Assembly: GCF_037975245.1 (NCBI RefSeq)
Contig: NC_092568.1
Location: 24,535,501 to 24,599,500, forward strand
DNA length: 64,000 nucleotides
Direction: 5' to 3'
DNA from: Apostichopus japonicus
Taxonomy: Eukaryota; Echinodermata; Holothuroidea; Aspidochirotida; Stichopodidae
Part shown: in pieces, positions 38,756-53,619 of the stretch
Numbering within the stretch: the stretch's first letter is position 1
Layout of the letters: every line of letters begins with the position of its first letter
Program-made: the position numbers and the translations under genes
The notes under the pieces: model-generated
The model's input: the letters and a program-made list of their open reading frames with translations, nothing else
Told to the model about the DNA's origin: nothing
The model's database searches: none

Positions 38756-41700
38756 ATGTTGGATCAGACCAAGAAGAAGCTCTTAATATTTGGAGGGTTG
38801 TTATTTTTTGGTTGGTATGCTTCAAGAAGTTGGAGCTCCATGCAAGACTACAATATGTGGATGAGCCGTCTTGAACTCTATGAATTTAAAACACAGTTTG
38901 AGAAATCAAGTAAGTCTGCAAAGCTGTTTGTAAATGTTTATAGGGCTCCATCTTATATTAAATTTTTGAATTATCCTCAATTTTCCAGGTACCTGCTTCA
39001 GTTAGGGGATCTGAGTAGATTCCTTGAATAAAATCCCAGTGACTTTTCTGCTACCGAAAGTATAGCAGTTCATTTCATTTGCCTTCATATTTCAGGATGT
39101 TTCACGTTAGAAGAGTATTCGGTACTGGACGTAAAAAATAGAAAAGCTTTCCGTGATCTGCCTGATGCGAAGATATCAAAATTACAGAGGGCTCAAAAGC
39201 AACTTCAAGATGAATTACTTTTAAAGCAATGGCTGGAAGACTACATGTACTCACCACTACTCCAACAGTAAGATATAATACATCTTCAATTATCCACTTA
39301 TAAATGATTTTGAATGTTAAATAATGCAGTCCTATTACCTGGTGCATGATATAATAGATAAGATGAGTTTTCTGAACAATATCAATGTCTTAAACTTCTG
39401 ATTTAGTAAGCAATGGATCATTTTCAGAAAGAAGATATAATTATAGAGTTTGTGAGAAGTAGTTTACCTGCAGTGACATTTTTTAGATCATTATCAAGAT
39501 CCATCACAACTAATCAGTTTGCCAGTTGTCAACTGATACTGCAGCAAGCTTTTTTTTTCATTGTTGCCAGTACCAACTTAGAATATGTACACACATACAA
39601 AGAATAACCCAATTTCTTCTGCTGCGATTGTAAGTAAGAACTCATACATTTATATTACAACTTACTACTTAGGCATAGTAGGAAAAGTTATTCCCTTAGA
39701 AATAATATTTTCTATCCCCTTTTAAACCCCTTTTGCTTTTGCAAGTAACACTTTTAAGAGGGTTAGTTCAGAGGAAAAACAATTTTTGACTGAAAGAAGA
39801 ACTTGTATTCTTAGTATTCTGCAGAAATTTGCAAGCAATTCCAATATTTTATTTTCGTGACCCTGATAGTTGAAATTGCTACAGTTTTTTTGTTGTAATT
39901 AAAGTTGAAGCAATGTGTGATGTCATAGTTGCACAATGAGAGCAAACCCTTTTTTCTTTCTTTCTCTTGTTGTTTGTATCAATTTATTGTATTGAACTTG
40001 GATTGGACAAGGATAAGACTCATACATTAATGCATCCCAATTTTGAAGAAGAAATTATGGTGTTCAATTTAAAGAAAGCATAAGGCAAATTTGTGCATCT
40101 ATGACATCACACATGCTTGCTGAAAGTTCCCTTTTCAGTACAAATCATTGTCAACTTCAAATGTTGTTATCTGGTTAGGTTGTGTTTGTGTGATTAAATT
40201 TATCAACATTGGTACTTTGTGATAGTAATTTGTTACGTTGTATAGGGAACTTTGTGGAAATGTCACCAAATTGAAGATCCTCTGGCTGCCTTATCAGATA
40301 TATAAATGATTTTATTTACCATCATTATGTAATCTACAGTTTTGATGTAGAAAGATACTAGCATTTTGTAATATATTGAAAGAGGCATCTTTATTTTGCA
40401 GGCTCCACTCACTAGAGATTTGGACGCTTGATGACTTACAAACGAAGATCCACAACTCGAAGAAAATCAAGACTAAGCTCTCTCTGTCTGAGCAAGAGCT
40501 GTCAAGTTTACAAAAAAAAGTGAAAGCTTTTCAGGCCAGTGGTAAAACATACAAGGCTAACTTTTCCAACTCTAGGAAGATATGGAATTTCATCGTCTGG
40601 ATGTTAACTTCACAGGGTGAGTGTTAAAGGGGTAGACAGTGTTGCATGTGTAACAGAAGGGCCTAAGTATGTGCAAAGTTATGTTTTTATGCTTAGACTT
40701 TCCCAAATGGACTATTTTATTTCACAGATATAACTTTACATGTAGCTTATGCCCTCCTGTCACATGTATACACACATACACACACACATCCCTCTCCCTT
40801 CCTCAGACCTCTCCCAGTACTATTTCAGGTTCTACATATATACTACAGTAAAATAAAGTTCCTTTAAAAAGTGTTTTTTCCCTTTGAATGTGGTACTTTT
40901 AAAGAAAAAGTCGCCCAGGAAAGAACCTGGGCACGAAAAACCGAACGACTGATACGCTCTCAATCCCAGTCCCTTTGCATCGGGACTGTGACTGTGTGAT
41001 CATCGTCGGGTGTGCATCACCATTCCCCTCGAAAGGGAACAAATACTACACATGATCTTAGCCAAATGTGGTTGCCATGTTTCAATGTTTGAACATAACT
41101 CCATCATCATTTTTTCTCCTTGAGAGTTTGGCAATGCTGAGACAGTAGAAGACTTTTAATCGAGTGACCTACCTACACAAAATTCAGAGACTTATTAGAA
41201 CAAGTTGCTCCGTTTCTAAGAATCAAGGAAATAGTTTGTTCAAAAATTCATGTTTGAATGCAACCCATCATTAATAAGCAAACATGTGTTGTTGTAAATT
41301 GTTTTCACATTTTGTGCTAAGAATTGTCTCCAAAGAAACTCAACTGGCCACAAACGTTACTTGATTTTGTTGTTGTATGATTTCTATTTTCAGGAAAAGT
41401 ACTTGTTGCGATCATAGTTGGAGGTATATTCTTTTATTGGGTGAGAGGTAACAATGCTGCCGTTTCCAAATATCAGTCGGAGAAACCAGACTACCTGACG
41501 ATATTATCCGGTAGTGTCCTAGACACCAACAAGACAGAAGTGGAGTGGTGCATCAAAGAGATTGCGCACGTCGGTGGTAATCTCAAATTCATCATCAGGG
41601 TAAAACAGCTCTCTCTGATTTCTCACGGTTTATAGGCAGCATTTCATTTCTAAACACTGCACAAACAACGTTCCATTTCCAACCCTTATTCGTTAAACTT

Positions 41701-44700
41701 GAGTGATCCTTTCAGAAACATTAGGAAGAACTTTTGCTCCCTCAAAATGGTTCAAGAATATTGCTGAAATAGGGATAAATGTTGCCAGTGGGGACAATAA
41801 TTCCATCCCCCCCAATTTTTATATGCAAATTAGAGGAGGTATAAAATGAAAGTTTTCATATAAGAATGAAGAGTAGGTAAATTGAAAAGTGCTGCAAGTT
41901 TATGTTGTTCTCTAGTGTTGTTAGAGTTGGATTAGAAAAATAGCTGCACTATTAATCATCTTTTGTGATGTCACTGTAGCACCAAACGAACAACAATCTT
42001 TGTGATTGGATAAATTTTCATGCATTATCTTGCGACCATTGACCATATTCGGTCACTTTCATGAATGTTTATTAGTCATCGATTTCCTAGCTTTCTTCGC
42101 TTCATGAAAGCGGTTTTATCATCTGGACATTCTCTTTGACTGAAATACCTACACACTGTCAACATTCTGTAATTTATTGCTCTGTTTTATTGGATTATCT
42201 CTGCATTGCTATTTTTGTTGTTGTTTTTTTTATTTTTTTTTTTTTTATTGTCACGTTGTGTACTTTTGATACTGATTCAGTCTTTAGATCTATTTTGCTC
42301 TTCTAAATTAACTTGATGTTTTTAGTCAAACTATTTCCACCAAGTTTTAATAAATGTATAAATGTACCCTCTCATGATCTGTTAGAGCAGATTTGATGAT
42401 TAATCAACTCTTTCAGGACCTTTAAGACCTGTCTGACATCCAAATATTATAATTAATGCAGCATTAGTTAAATAATGCTTCTGTCGATTAGTGCAGAAAA
42501 TTGTACTCGTATGTTGTTTTAAGATTTCTTATAAAAGTTTGAGTCTAGTTAGACTTCACTCTTTTGAATTCTCCTTTAGAACTAGAAAGCATAAAAGATA
42601 GATAAAGTAAAATTAATAAAGAATTCACTCTTTATTTCATTTTAGTGCAGAAGCAATTTGTACTACCATAACCTTTGCATCACTTATCTTTCAAAGTATG
42701 AATGAAGTTAAACACTGCACATAATACTAGCATTAACAGTCAAAGTGAAACTGGAAACTGTGACTGAATAGTAATCTTTGGTATTAAAGATATAACACTT
42801 CAAAATGGGTCGAGGTTCTACGATGCAGTCTAAACAATAACTCTTTTATGATATGGAAGGATCAGTAGTCTACCTTTGACTAACAGTTCAAAGGTCGTGG
42901 GATTCTTTGTCTTGGTGGAAGGTTTATTTACAAATAGCGATAAACATATGGCAGTCTTACAGTGTTTACTTCTCTCCTGTCTGGTTGTTTACTTACCATT
43001 ACTATCTCCTTTTCAGTTTTACCAAAGGAATGGATTCAAATGTCCAGTGTCAAAGAAAGACAAGATTACAGTTGAAATCTTATCCCCACAAGGCCCCATA
43101 CCTCACTCCTTAGAATTCAGTCCCGAGCCTCAGAACAACGAGGTCACAGTTCACGCCTTCACCGTCAAGAGGGCAGGTATTTACAGTATTTCTGTCACAG
43201 TCATGCACGTTCATATCAAAGGCAGCCCTTTCAAGAAAAAGTTTTTAGCAGGTGAGTCTATTTTGTCACAGTTATAAACAGGTATCTTAGAGTGTCCCTG
43301 ATTTCCTGTGGTTGTATTCACATTTAATCCTGTTACCCACCCAACCTACATAGTACATACCTCCACCTCCCCCCCCCCCTCTCTCAGGTTGTTGACAGGT
43401 TACAATGAAATTCGATACAAAAGTTCCTGCTGCATGTGGTATGATTCATATATAGCAACATGGAATTATCAAAGCTCATTTTTGTTCTGGTGGTCTGAGA
43501 GAAAAATGGGTCAATTTTGTGTTAAAGGCAAGTTTGGGAAATGCTATTGTAGGACACCTTCAATATTAGGTGCAACAGATGAAGGGATCAATGTCTTTGC
43601 CTGTTTTGTGTTTATAAGTGTCCGGCCTACTATGCTTACAAAAGTAATGTCTCTGTTAAAGAACTGAATACATAATAGGATTCACAGAAGTTAACATGTT
43701 GCACATTTGATTGATAGTCTGTATTTTCAAGCAAAAAGCAAATCTTTGAGCAATTCTCTTAGTTGAAGTCATTTGCAGAACTGTTCTCTCCACACTCTCA
43801 TTTTGTTACCCAGTTAACTAACAATTGCATACAAATTTGGGTAACACCTGTGAAATTCTTACAATGTGGTAACTACTGTACCTGGATACACTATGAAACC
43901 AAACCTTCAGTCATACATGTATAGTTCATCTAAACTATAGTATGAAGTAAGAAGATCCTGCAAGGATCGAAACGTCAGGCCAACTTACTTTTACACATTC
44001 TCCTACACAGGCTCTCTAGTGGATAAGCAGTTTGCTAAAAGTTTTATTTTATTTTGATACTATATTATGAAATGAGACAAGAATAGTTGCTTTGATTTGT
44101 GACCTTAGCTTCGCTCGTGTAAATCCAAAGTGAATATTATAATTGAACATGATTTAATGTGTTGGCAGTATGTGTAGCACCTAAAGAGAAATGAATGTTC
44201 TTGTTTATTAATACATGTATGTATTGCCATTCTATATATATTTTTTTTTTTTCAGGAACACCTGACCCAAAGAAGACGGGTCTGGTTCACCACTCATCTG
44301 TGGCTGTCGTAACACAAAATGCAGATCAGTCCTTACAAGTGGAAGTCCGAGATATCTATGACAACGTCTGTTCTCTGGATTCTTTAAAGAGAAGTGGTGC
44401 TGCAACAGAATTTCAGTTTAAAGTTGCAAAGGTTCGTTAAGAGTGCTTGAAATGTGCTATTGAAGTCACATGACTATTTTCAGGGTACACTGACACTTTG
44501 TAATTCTTCTTTGAATTTTTAATACTTAAGCTACACTGTCTTTTTTTTGGGGTGGGGGGTTTTAGTTTCTTTTATATGTTGAATGTTTGGCCTGTTTTGA
44601 GAGCTTCCTGGTGTAAAGCATAGCTTGCAATTTTGTTAGTTTTTAGGCGATATTTTGATGTCATCATCTTTAGAAAACAGTTATTTTACATCCATAACAT

Positions 44701-50700: not shown

Positions 50701-53619
50701 CACGTGAGTCACAAAACGAAATCACATATCTGTCTTCGTGTTAAGGTAAATTGATGTTCTTTGCAGCGTCTTCCAGAACTACCCAACTTTTGTTTTGAGT
50801 GATAAGATGTCTAAAACTAGACCCTCAATTTATGAATATCATTATTTGGAAATGTAAAAATTGGGATTGCTTGTGGAGGTAGCTTATAGCTTGGGTTTTT
50901 GATCACTAGTTTGGTTTCAAATATGGGAACTATGCTAATTAAATGAAGGTCAATGTGGAAGAGCCCATGGATACTACATTTTTTGTTATTGCTTTGTTTC
51001 TAAGGGAACATTATGGAGTGGTGAGCTATATAGAAATGCTGAAAATATAAACACATTTAATGTTTCAAATATAACCATAATTTTGAATAAAGAATTCTCT
51101 GGTACAACTTGTAGTCCTTTTATGTTTTAATGGAAATAATTAAGATATTAAAATAAATATATCATTTTTTGACAGTTTTTTGAAACTGATGAGCCAGAAT
51201 ACTACAAGACCAAAGTTAAATACATTCTTGAAAACGACATCACGGATATGGAACTCTGCTTCGCCGAGGACCAATACGACAGCAACGGGAAATTCTTGAC
51301 CGTAAGTGAAAACCCACAAATAAAGACTTTGATGGTTCAGCAGTGGATATATGAGATGCATAAATACTCCAGATCACTTCAATTTACAACTATGCCTCTT
51401 ACACCCAAAAACCTCAGGCTTCTGAATATCCTGTTGCTTTACAGAAGATTTGTTTTGTGTTTGATGATAATGGGCTTTTAAGCTAATGTGGGATATTTCT
51501 GTCTCTACTTTTGAGTCTTTTTTCTTCTCACAATGATCTCCGTTTTCATCATGCATGTATGGTTGCAGTTTTAGTTTAATTTTGCTAGTGTGTAACCTCA
51601 GTGTCCCTCGACACAAACATCCTTCAGCTACATTACTAGTTATAATGTGGACTGACTTGTGTGAAGCCATACGTTATCCACTGGAGGGAAAAAGAATTTC
51701 ACGATATATATGATTCAAGATATTAGAGATTGTTTTAATGCTTGTATTATTGCAGATTATTGTAATCTTGTGTCACAAATGCAAGAACTGTTCAATCATA
51801 CTTGTCTCACTTTGACATTTTTTGTTTGTTTAATGATGGCATGGAACGTCTACAACCTAAATATGTTTCAATTTGTTAATACTTTGTAATTTTACAGACT
51901 GTGGAATTAATCCACAATGGTAAAGACACGAAGGTCACCAACCAAAACAAGATGCAATATTTAGACCTGCTGGCACAACACAGACTATCTAACTGTGTAC
52001 AAGAGGAAATTGAAGCATTCCTTAAAGGTAAAGAAGGAAAATTCGCCAGTGGGTGGTGTCTTGAATGATTTTATGAAGGCAAAAATGGCAAACAGGAAAC
52101 CTATTTTAGAGAAATTAAACGTAAAGCTAACTAGTATTGTCGAACTGATTGTCTGTTTCATTATTCAAACCTAATGGCCAAGTTGGTTATCTGTTAGGGA
52201 ATGATATCAAATTTGATTAATTTCTCAAACTTCTAGAACCTTCTAGGGTGTCCCTGTTTGGGGTCGTTTTCTTATTTTTTGTTGGACTGGGGATGGGAGT
52301 GGGAGGGGAGGGTTTAGACGGAGGAAACTTTGAAGAGAATGCTCAGGTCAAGCAACAAAGTATTTTTTCTGTCATGATTTATTGAACAATCCATAGAATC
52401 ACCTTCATAATTATACTATATTGGGGTTGTTGTTGTTTTGTTTTTGTTTTAGTAATAAAAGAAAGTTGTTTAAACTCTGAATACCCTGTAAGTAATTTTT
52501 TTAATGATTTTGTATTGATGGCAGGATTAAATGACCTGATTCCTGATCATCTTCTGAGCATCTTTGATGAGAATGAGCTTGAGATGCTGCTCTGTGGAGC
52601 CTGCACATTCTCCCTCGATGACCTTAAGGGGAACCATATCCTTGTTGGCAGTAATCCTAGGTTCCTTCAGGTGAGAGTCCACATGAGCAAACTATTCAAA
52701 GCAGTATTTTTGTTGTCAATCCAAAGATTTTTTTTTTAATTATTATGATAAATTGTAATGCAGTTTATTACCTCCTTATGTCTACTGTTGTTTTTAATAT
52801 TGAAGTCCCCAACATGAAACTTGAGCTTTATCACAATGATTCTTTCAGTTGACAGTTAACAACTGAAGACCAATATAGTAAAAGCATCAGTATGTTATGT
52901 CTATATGTTGACCAATCTCTGCTTTGTCTCCATATCAAACTAATATCTATTTTCCGATGCTCTCGCAGACGGTGCAGTGGTTTTGGGAGATCATTTCCAG
53001 TTTTACTCAAGAGGAACTCACCAGGCTATTACAGTTTACAACAGGATCCTCTCAATTACCGACAGAGGGATTTGCTCAACTGAAACCAACTTTCCAGATA
53101 ATGTCGGTGCCAGCTCATGCTAGCCTTCCTACAGCTCATACTTGGTATGTAACCTTAGTCTAGATAAATCCTACCTTATCCTTCGTACAGCCCATACTTG
53201 GTATGTAACTCAAGTTGATATGGTACCATCCTTAGTCCAATGCCAAAGCCAACGAATAATCGTCTCTCATTATGTGAACAGTTAAATTTTCTTCGGGTAT
53301 TCCTCAGTGAGGATGTGGAAAGTTTGGTGAAATCTACCCGGTGATATGAATCATTAATGACGTCCACAGCGGCTCCCACATGATGATATGAATATTCATG
53401 ATGTCTTGCAATCCTCTGATTGGTGATGTGAATGTTCAAGTCTCACATGGTTTTAATAATGGACAGTTACTCCACTGACACGTAAATTACACTTGTCCCT
53501 TTGTCTAACTCCACAGCTTCAACCAGCTCTGCCTGCCAACTTACGATAACCCTGAGCAGTTTCACAGAATGTTGAGCTTAGCTATCAGTGAAGGATCATC
53601 TGGATTTGGTTTCCTTTAG
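38756..53619 (+). CDS. AREL1: Apoptosis-resistant E3 ubiquitin ligase 1 (HECT domain, filamin-like repeats)
   Basis: Eighteen coding exons: 38756-38909, 39096-39267, 40402-40616, 41394-41599, 43017-43251, 44256-44431, 45507-45681, 46157-46368, 47654-47798, 48015-48133, 48836-48911, 49753-49865, 50521-50703, 51176-51301, 51898-52027, 52525-52670, 52969-53144, 53517-53619; 953 aa (human 823). Hydrophobic helices at about 9-22 and 183-197 flank a charged, coiled-coil-like stretch. Filamin-like Ig repeats lie at about 245-450 (AFTVKRAGIYSISVTV; VKRPGCYQASITYQGEPI). A conserved linker holds YISPKQLTVKEFYLKFIPKR. The HECT domain, from about 625, includes LDWGGLTREW, FYEFAGKLVGKCLYD, FDENELEMLLCG, LLQFTTGSSQLP and the active-site Cys920 in PTAHTCFNQLCLPTYD, ending SGFGFL. 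Human AREL1 ubiquitinates IAP antagonists (SMAC, HtrA2, ARTS) and limits apoptosis. Intron 7 appears to use a GC donor. Start is the first in-frame ATG of a long exon. Confidence 0.95.
40905..41066 (-). ncRNA. Candidate U2-snRNA-like structured RNA (or snRNA-derived repeat) in AREL1 intron 3
   Basis: Read on the minus strand, 41066-41037 matches the 5' part of U2 snRNA at 28 of 30 positions as I recall the human sequence, including TTTGGCTAAGATCA and GTGTAGTA, the segment that pairs with intron branch points. Downstream follow a small hairpin (about 41038-41022), a hairpin with 7-bp arms CAGTCCC/GGGACTG (40967-40988), a U-rich site GTTTTTCG (40935-40942) resembling an Sm site, a terminal hairpin GCCCAGG/CCTGGGC (40913-40932) and a T5 run (40905-40909). 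This order (functional 5' segment, hairpins, Sm-like site, 3' hairpin) is that of a spliceosomal snRNA. The first U2 bases (stem I) and the classical U2 Sm region are not recognisable. Alternatives: U2 pseudogene or snRNA-headed SINE. Confidence 0.4.
45106..45439. mobile_element. Short TTAA-flanked inverted-repeat element in AREL1 intron 6
   Basis: The termini AGCAGCTTTTTGAG and CTCAGAAAGCTGCT are inverted with one mismatch. TTAA flanks both sides (45102-45105 and 45440-45443). It is 334 bp with no coding capacity. The end AGCAGC is shared with the larger TTAA element in TBCE intron 5, which suggests related families. Confidence 0.65.
46915..47411 (+). repeat. Minisatellite, unit 73-74 bp, about seven copies, AREL1 intron 8
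   Basis: The word ATAGGTAGT recurs near 46988, 47061, 47134, 47208, 47276 and 47350, each followed by GGAAACATACAATAGCATGG-like and GGATTTGGTGGGAATTAAAT-like words. Spacing is 73, 73, 74, 68 and 74 bp. The first unit (from about 46915) and the last are diverged. Confidence 0.9.
49867..50061. repeat. A/T-only low-complexity tract in AREL1 intron 12
   Basis: About 195 bases contain almost only T and A (runs of TTTTTATATAT and TTTATTTATT), beginning directly after the exon 12 donor at 49866. Confidence 0.9.

Follow-up and report, generated by a model that had tools for sequence, protein, structure and literature searches.

The SINEU elements described by Kojima in 2015 are reportedly crocodilian SINEs with heads derived from the U1 or U2 snRNA, and they are said to be linked to a Tx1-type LINE. 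The U1 and U2 genes have their promoters outside the RNA, and therefore it is not evident how a SINE with an snRNA head comes to be transcribed. Among LINEs, Keno and Utopia share an insertion point in the U2 gene, so placed that the downstream U2 sequence starts at nt 39 (PMC4640811). The same paper cites Kojima's SINEU work for the distribution of Keno, and that work may already treat a connection of SINEU with Keno. The R2 SIDEs, in turn, derive from R2 by internal deletion and contain a ribozyme (PMC3414825).

In the sea cucumber Apostichopus japonicus we found an element of the SINEU type, short, non-coding, present in many dispersed copies as SINEs are, and with a head that comes from the U2 snRNA. 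Compared by description only, it shares with SINEU an snRNA-derived 5′ head and differs from it in its echinoderm host and in having copies inside U2 genes, under the U2 promoter and at the target site of a LINE. With Keno and Utopia (PMC4640811) it shares the insertion point, the U2 sequence resuming at nt 39. In contrast to the Keno/Utopia-type LINEs of the U2 array, it has no coding capacity, lies for the most part in dispersed copies and has just the last few bases in common with them. The nearest functional parallel are the R2 SIDEs (PMC3414825), which are likewise short non-autonomous elements that sit in a multicopy RNA gene and use a site-specific LINE; however, the body of the SINE matches no LINE piece tested, unlike an internal R2 deletion, and about 1,000 or more of its copies lie outside the host gene. 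The literature covered, by titles and the beginnings of abstracts and mostly from papers open without subscription, Kojima's 2015 article not among them, yielded no U2-resident SINE, no echinoderm SINE with an snRNA-derived head and no description of the life cycle discussed below. From the arrangement of the copies we consider it likely that this SINE acquires a U2 promoter through insertion into U2 genes, relies on a U2-targeting LINE for its copying and is scattered through the genome when a landing misses its target.

The window, that is, the whole stretch of 64,000 nucleotides that was analysed, contains one match to the family sequence (blastn, 93.3% over 180 columns), with 97.1% of the aligned bases identical and one gap. 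This 5′-truncated copy lies at 40894..41066 on the minus strand and corresponds to element positions 16-195. Its head (41037..41066, minus strand) is U2 nt 16-45 and is 96.7% identical over 30 nt, with one mismatch, to the genome's own U2, so that the 30-nt U2 match claimed for 41066-41037 by a previous model reading made from the letters alone (hereafter the sequence-only reading) is real; the differences from human U2 are two, as it had said. The same reading was right that the segment spans the branch-point-pairing bases (GTAGTA is present), that the sequence past U2 nt 45 is non-U2, that U2 stem I is absent (the copy begins at nt 16) and that a T5 run, seen by direct reading, stands near the 3′ end. 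The U2 insertion site, GTA/TCTGTTC, reads GTA/TTTGTTC in this head.

The hairpins announced for this copy were also recovered, the tight one being the tail hairpin GCCCAGG..CCTGGGC at 40913..40932 on the minus strand (fold and direct reading). It is followed by a terminal hairpin, ACTTTTTCTTTAAAAGT (ACTTTTTCTTAAAAAGT in the family), at 40895..40911 on the same strand and on the same grounds, before the last A. Both this last hairpin (ACTTTTT/AAAAGT) and the terminal GTA are part of the element, whose end, previously set at 40905, was therefore moved to about 40894. The copy measures 173 nt against 180 family positions, with one gap, the result of a 7-nt deletion within its 3′ half at 40936..40941 (minus strand), where the family has CGGTAGTTTGGTTTTCG and the window copy CGGTTTTTCG. 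Target-site duplications CCACATT, found by direct reading of the minus strand, occur on the 5′ side (41065..41071) and on the 3′ side (40887..40893); with the preceding A counted, the 5′ one reads ACCACATT, and it overlaps the first bases of the head. The feature is a dead, shortened retro-copy of a SINE with a U2-derived head and not a U2 gene, and it would be a promoterless copy produced by landing outside the U2 genes.

An AREL1 intron, with the copy antisense to the gene, had been proposed as its location. An AREL1-like gene does run on the plus strand, with one open stretch carrying a filamin repeat (42852..43274; Pfam PF00630, E 9.3e-07) and another carrying a HECT piece (52386..52736; Pfam PF00632, E 2.2e-06), for which the best solved structure is AREL1 itself (6jx5, E 7e-11). 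The filamin-repeat exon is about 1.8 kb downstream of the SINE copy, on the opposite strand. No exon was identified upstream of the copy, and the intron position is no more than likely. Beside the SINE, the palindrome-like stretch at 40638-40798 weakly matched microRNA precursors on either strand, with at most 29.3 bits where the cut-off is 95; it is perhaps a MITE.

Full copies of the family are about 195 nt long and are made up of U2 nt 1-45 followed by about 150 nt unrelated to U2, with hairpins, ending in AAAAAGTA; the fullest of them start with ATCGCTTCTCGG, the first bases of U2. A copy-number search of the same genome, run as pattern counts over the whole A. japonicus assembly with up to three mismatches, revealed at least 1,041 head-body junctions and 921 tails, spread over many contigs, with reversed controls giving zero in both cases. 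Among the options left by the sequence-only reading, the head of an snRNA-derived SINE is therefore the right one, given the many copies and the target duplications described below, even if the thousands of copies that it named as the mark of a SINE are unproven and the number stands at about 1,000 or more. Its chimeric pseudogene holds as regards the dead state of the window copy, but the chimera itself is a fixed and multiplied family; fresh U2 chimeras and a lone retropseudogene were both rejected on account of the fixed head-body junction.

A DNA search with the window copy returned 47 matches, the best 40 of 2,183 first-look candidates having been scored, and 68 copies were aligned, namely the window copy, the 7 best matches of this search and 60 copies selected by their tails. 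By local alignment, which may err by a few bases, 16 of the 68 start at nt 1, 26 by nt 3 and 42 by nt 6, the others being shorter. Across these 68 copies, a sample biased to young ones, the median identity with the family sequence was 97.3%. The family sequence folds with z -4.30 (0/200 shuffles as good), and its stems include a hairpin at the head-body junction, GCCCAGG/CCTGGGC and the last hairpin ACTTTTT/AAAAAGT. The head of U2 nt 1-45 is exact in two of the U2-resident copies at L102 and has one change in that of L103, and full U2 heads are also present in dispersed copies. A full SINE thus shares nt 1-45 with the U2 snRNA gene (Rfam RF00004), after which the dispersed copies read diverge, U2 sequence past nt 45 being absent from them. 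Compared with the LINE pieces fetched, one family nearly complete and the others represented by their ends, the body gave no match (best E about 1), and a composition from the 5′ and 3′ ends of a LINE, as in R2 SIDEs, was not seen among these pieces; a deletion product of an unseen LINE part is a possible origin.

The published A. japonicus annotation gives 0.02% of SINEs (159,644 bp) and 996 'splicing' snRNAs (PMC10344927). As 1,041 copies of about 190 nt exceed that SINE length, the family was probably missed as a SINE in this annotation.

Target duplications (score of at least 8) were detected in 42 of 60 tail-selected copies, against 3 of 60 when flanks were swapped. These 60 are the zero-mismatch tail matches among the first 100 listed of the 921, a sample that favours young copies and disfavours the resident subfamily, which has one different base in its tail. 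Six of them repeat the flanks of another copy and were kept in the 42/60 and dropped from the target-base counts, which leaves 54; L039 and L057, with nearly the same flank, both remain among the 54 and among the 33 used for position -1, so that the independent number is one lower. Inverted heads were found in L047 and L074 and, by eye, in L026. Head truncations and inversions are marks of target-primed reverse transcription, and the family has both, together with the target-site duplications.

The bases at the insertion points are not random. With 20 positions tested, A at -1 was found in 27 of the 33 copies whose duplication is anchored at the tail end (p 5e-10), the other 21 of the 54 having no such duplication, while the full 54 gave T at +1 in 36 (p 3.5e-07), C at +2 in 23 (p 3.9e-05) and T at +3 in 28 (p 0.003). 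The A at -1 is either the target or the first base of the duplication, and the genomic base is A either way. U2 reads A/TCT at nt 38/39-41, and the target bases of dispersed copies resemble this core; further out, at -2 to -8 and +4 to +7, the likeness to U2 is lost.

A few copies showed peculiar surroundings. The sampled copies L039, L057, L060, L066, L071 and L076, on six contigs, have the same or nearly the same flanks and represent a SINE carried within another repeat family. At C5:11042410-11066021, eight exact SINE junctions follow one another in one orientation, 2.7-4.1 kb apart, in what is probably a tandem array that swallowed a SINE. By eye, L077 appears to be a truncated SINE that has TCTGC on each side and is embedded in a LINE-like reading frame. 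The unique stretch upstream of L035 was considered as a LINE 3′ end and rejected, a genome search matching itself alone.

Of 40,968 candidates for U2 in the genome, 46 were scored, and the matches so listed comprise 42 on C16, mostly 645 bp apart, and 4 on C15; some of the C16 units contain long inserts. The SINE tail followed by U2 from nt 39 onward occurs in eight places genome-wide and in none in the control. Seven of these are exact tail-U2 nt 38/39 junctions, six in the C16 U2 array and one on C20, the latter within a decayed U2; in the eighth, on C5, a SINE lies within the head of another SINE. The order in the residents is U2 promoter, U2 head, SINE body, tail AAAAAGTA and then U2 from nt 39. 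Upstream of the SINE, the bases are the same as in the intact neighbour U2 gene at 430/430 positions in the three SINE-bearing genes of L102, at 429/430 in L103 and at 366/368 in L107. A query made of the C16-type U2 upstream region and the SINE start matched end-to-end at three array places (95-96%) and at a fourth with 86%; with the C15-type promoter there was no contiguous match among the 40 candidates scored. Upstream of 28 full dispersed heads we found no homology to either of the two promoters (mean 5.8 and 5.1 of 20 bases, maximum 9).

One truncated resident is flanked on either side by the U2 bases TCTGTTCTTTTCAGC, its duplication being U2 sequence. L107 holds two SINEs in tandem in a single U2 gene, the first at nt 38/39 of the head of the second, and at L108 a short SINE lies in a U2 remnant behind a LINE. 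These truncated, tandem and LINE-associated cases and the one on C20 are distinct events; three resident copies differ from one another by 1-3 of 191 positions, and the 7 junctions may reflect fewer independent events, with array copies multiplied or homogenised. The SINE head carries the U2 target site, and landings of SINE in SINE were noted in one U2 gene (L107) and at one place elsewhere (L110); such landings would let the landing site itself spread.

Where the relevant part is present, the C16-array residents read belong to one subfamily with a shorter hairpin. Of the commoner CCTTTCGAGG form, the one copy met within U2 was the decayed one on C20, and no intact promoter-bearing resident of that subfamily was found, so that such a source did not come to light for most dispersed copies. 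The dispersed copies L110 and L040 are identical to a resident at 190/191 and 189/191 positions, and differences of 1 and 2 in 191 imply recent exchange between the two pools.

Junctions of any element with U2 at nt 38/39 amount to 23 (up to one mismatch), 7 of them formed by the SINE, and three LINE families end at this same U2 base in the C16 array. The C16 insert of family A encodes a zinc-knuckle ORF1, an AP-type endonuclease (Exo_endo_phos, PF03372, E 3.5e-19), a reverse transcriptase (RVT_1, PF00078, E 2.4e-38) and an RT-linked zinc finger; it is preceded by U2 nt 1-50, and at its 3′ end AAAAGTA is joined directly to U2 nt 39 onward. Family A therefore combines an AP-type endonuclease, as in Keno and not restriction-like as in Utopia, with insertion before U2 nt 39. 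In the two further families, with the same 3′ base and an ORF2 end 37-46% identical to that of family A, the likeness to Keno consists of the junction and this ORF2 end. We take the array LINEs to be, probably, members of the Tx1 clade. The 3′ ends of the SINE and of the three families share ACTT...AAGTA and little beyond, and the AGTA of this ending also occurs in the U2 target; among 20 LINE 3′ stretches fetched, 4 of them at the U2 site, the SINE tail was absent from the relatives outside it, and no LINE partner with that tail emerged. The insertion site of the SINE and its target preference fit a U2-targeting LINE with an AP endonuclease.

Other LINEs were met near U2 genes and elsewhere. 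In a U2 gene spacer at L079 (C16:31041050-31046450) there is a second kind of LINE, with open frames of 407 and 961 aa and a poly-A run, just upstream of a U2 gene; by eye, roughly the last dozen bases before U2 are kept. A dispersed relative of the U2-site LINEs (L082-L088 and L094), with an ORF2 end 36-40% identical to theirs and a poly-A end, mostly retains long open frames. ARAGORN found one tRNA gene beside it in L084, four in L087 and none in the other six, and by eye tandem repeats adjoin L085, L086 and L088; it is possibly another family that targets RNA genes.

Taken together, residents that keep the U2 promoter unchanged and occupy the target site of U2-specific LINEs suggest that a promoter can be borrowed by landing in a gene. 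A SINE copy in a U2 gene would be transcribed from the U2 promoter into an RNA with its first base at U2 +1 and the U2 head as its 5′ part; this RNA might either continue through U2 nt 39-193, for a total of about 346 nt, or end at AAAAAGUA. The endonuclease and reverse transcriptase of a U2-targeting LINE, Keno-like and probably of the Tx1 clade, would then copy this RNA, a landing in another U2 gene giving a new promoter-bearing copy and a landing elsewhere a promoterless one. A U2 head that starts at +1 with no promoter before it is what is expected of retro-copies of a U2-promoter transcript. The residents would be the sources, and the reverse flow, in which dispersed SINEs land in U2 genes through the preference of the enzyme, probably happens as well. 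If this is true, a site-specific LINE system has leaked about 1,000 or more inserts into the rest of the genome.

A stricter form of promoter borrowing, which by our reading of the copies has about an even chance of being right, would describe a promoterless SINE with two phases, in which the U2 array serves as a nursery and copies that land outside are dead on arrival. Each full insertion at nt 38/39 would then rebuild a complete gene, driven by the U2 promoter, from the U2 heads of the SINE and of its host.

It is also conceivable, but in our judgement unlikely, that we are dealing with an ordinary SINEU-type SINE, whose dispersed copies are transcribed on their own account, by internal Pol III signals or chance upstream promoters, with the U2 residents as sinks. 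The head-body junction, fixed in more than 1,000 copies, agrees with this, as does the lack of a promoter-bearing resident found for the commoner subfamily; an enzyme that prefers A/TCT anyway would make U2 genes natural landing sites, and the residents that differ by 1-3/191 may go back to a few events that were multiplied within the array. Nevertheless, TTTT and T5 runs are Pol III stop signals, and the element has an internal TTTT in the body and a T5 in the tail, both upstream of its true 3′ end. Pol III transcription of the dispersed copies thus seems disfavoured by the sequence. Moreover, U2 +1, the start of the U2 transcript, is also where the fullest dispersed copies begin.

Far less probable is that each copy arose as a fresh chimera, the reverse transcriptase of a LINE jumping from the RNA of the body to the U2 snRNA, so that head and body never shared a single RNA. 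Jumps to an snRNA are reported for R2 (PMC3414825), chimeras of LINE-1 with small RNAs have been attributed to template switching or RNA ligation (PMC13174262), and extra U2 pieces or directly joined SINEs do occur at some 5′ ends (L004, L056). Against it, one and the same junction recurs in 1,041 places, with variants specific to subfamilies, a pattern that fresh jumps should not produce.

The divergent U2 variant that the sequence-only reading had also envisaged, taken as a functional snRNA gene within the AREL1 intron, can practically be discarded, because its stable fold (z -4.34, better than 200/200 shuffles) and conserved branch-point-pairing bases are outweighed by a score of 17.7 bits with the Rfam U2 model against a gathering score of 46, by the loss of nt 1-15 with stem I and of all U2 past nt 45, by the lack of U2 sequence upstream, and by a truncated copy with a 7-nt deletion, a target duplication and more than 1,000 sisters. 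There were no gathering-level Rfam matches in the window, and in the list for 40600-41400 the SINE stretch drew U2 and one other sub-threshold match only. The full-length SINE copies L040, L061, L005, L102, L103 and L107 reach 47-54 bits with the same model through their heads. The Rfam U2 score alone does not discriminate between this SINE and a U2 gene, and as the full copies tested pass the cut-off, annotations based on Rfam may count SINEs as U2 genes. Finally, two minor observations concern the assembly. COX1 on C35 has TGA for Trp and AAA for Asn, the latter at conserved Asn positions in stretches such as GGFGNWL and VYNVVVTAHA, which is the usage of the echinoderm and flatworm code. Five further COX1 pieces occur on C29:14745-31219, perhaps as part of a second, rearranged mitochondrial sequence.
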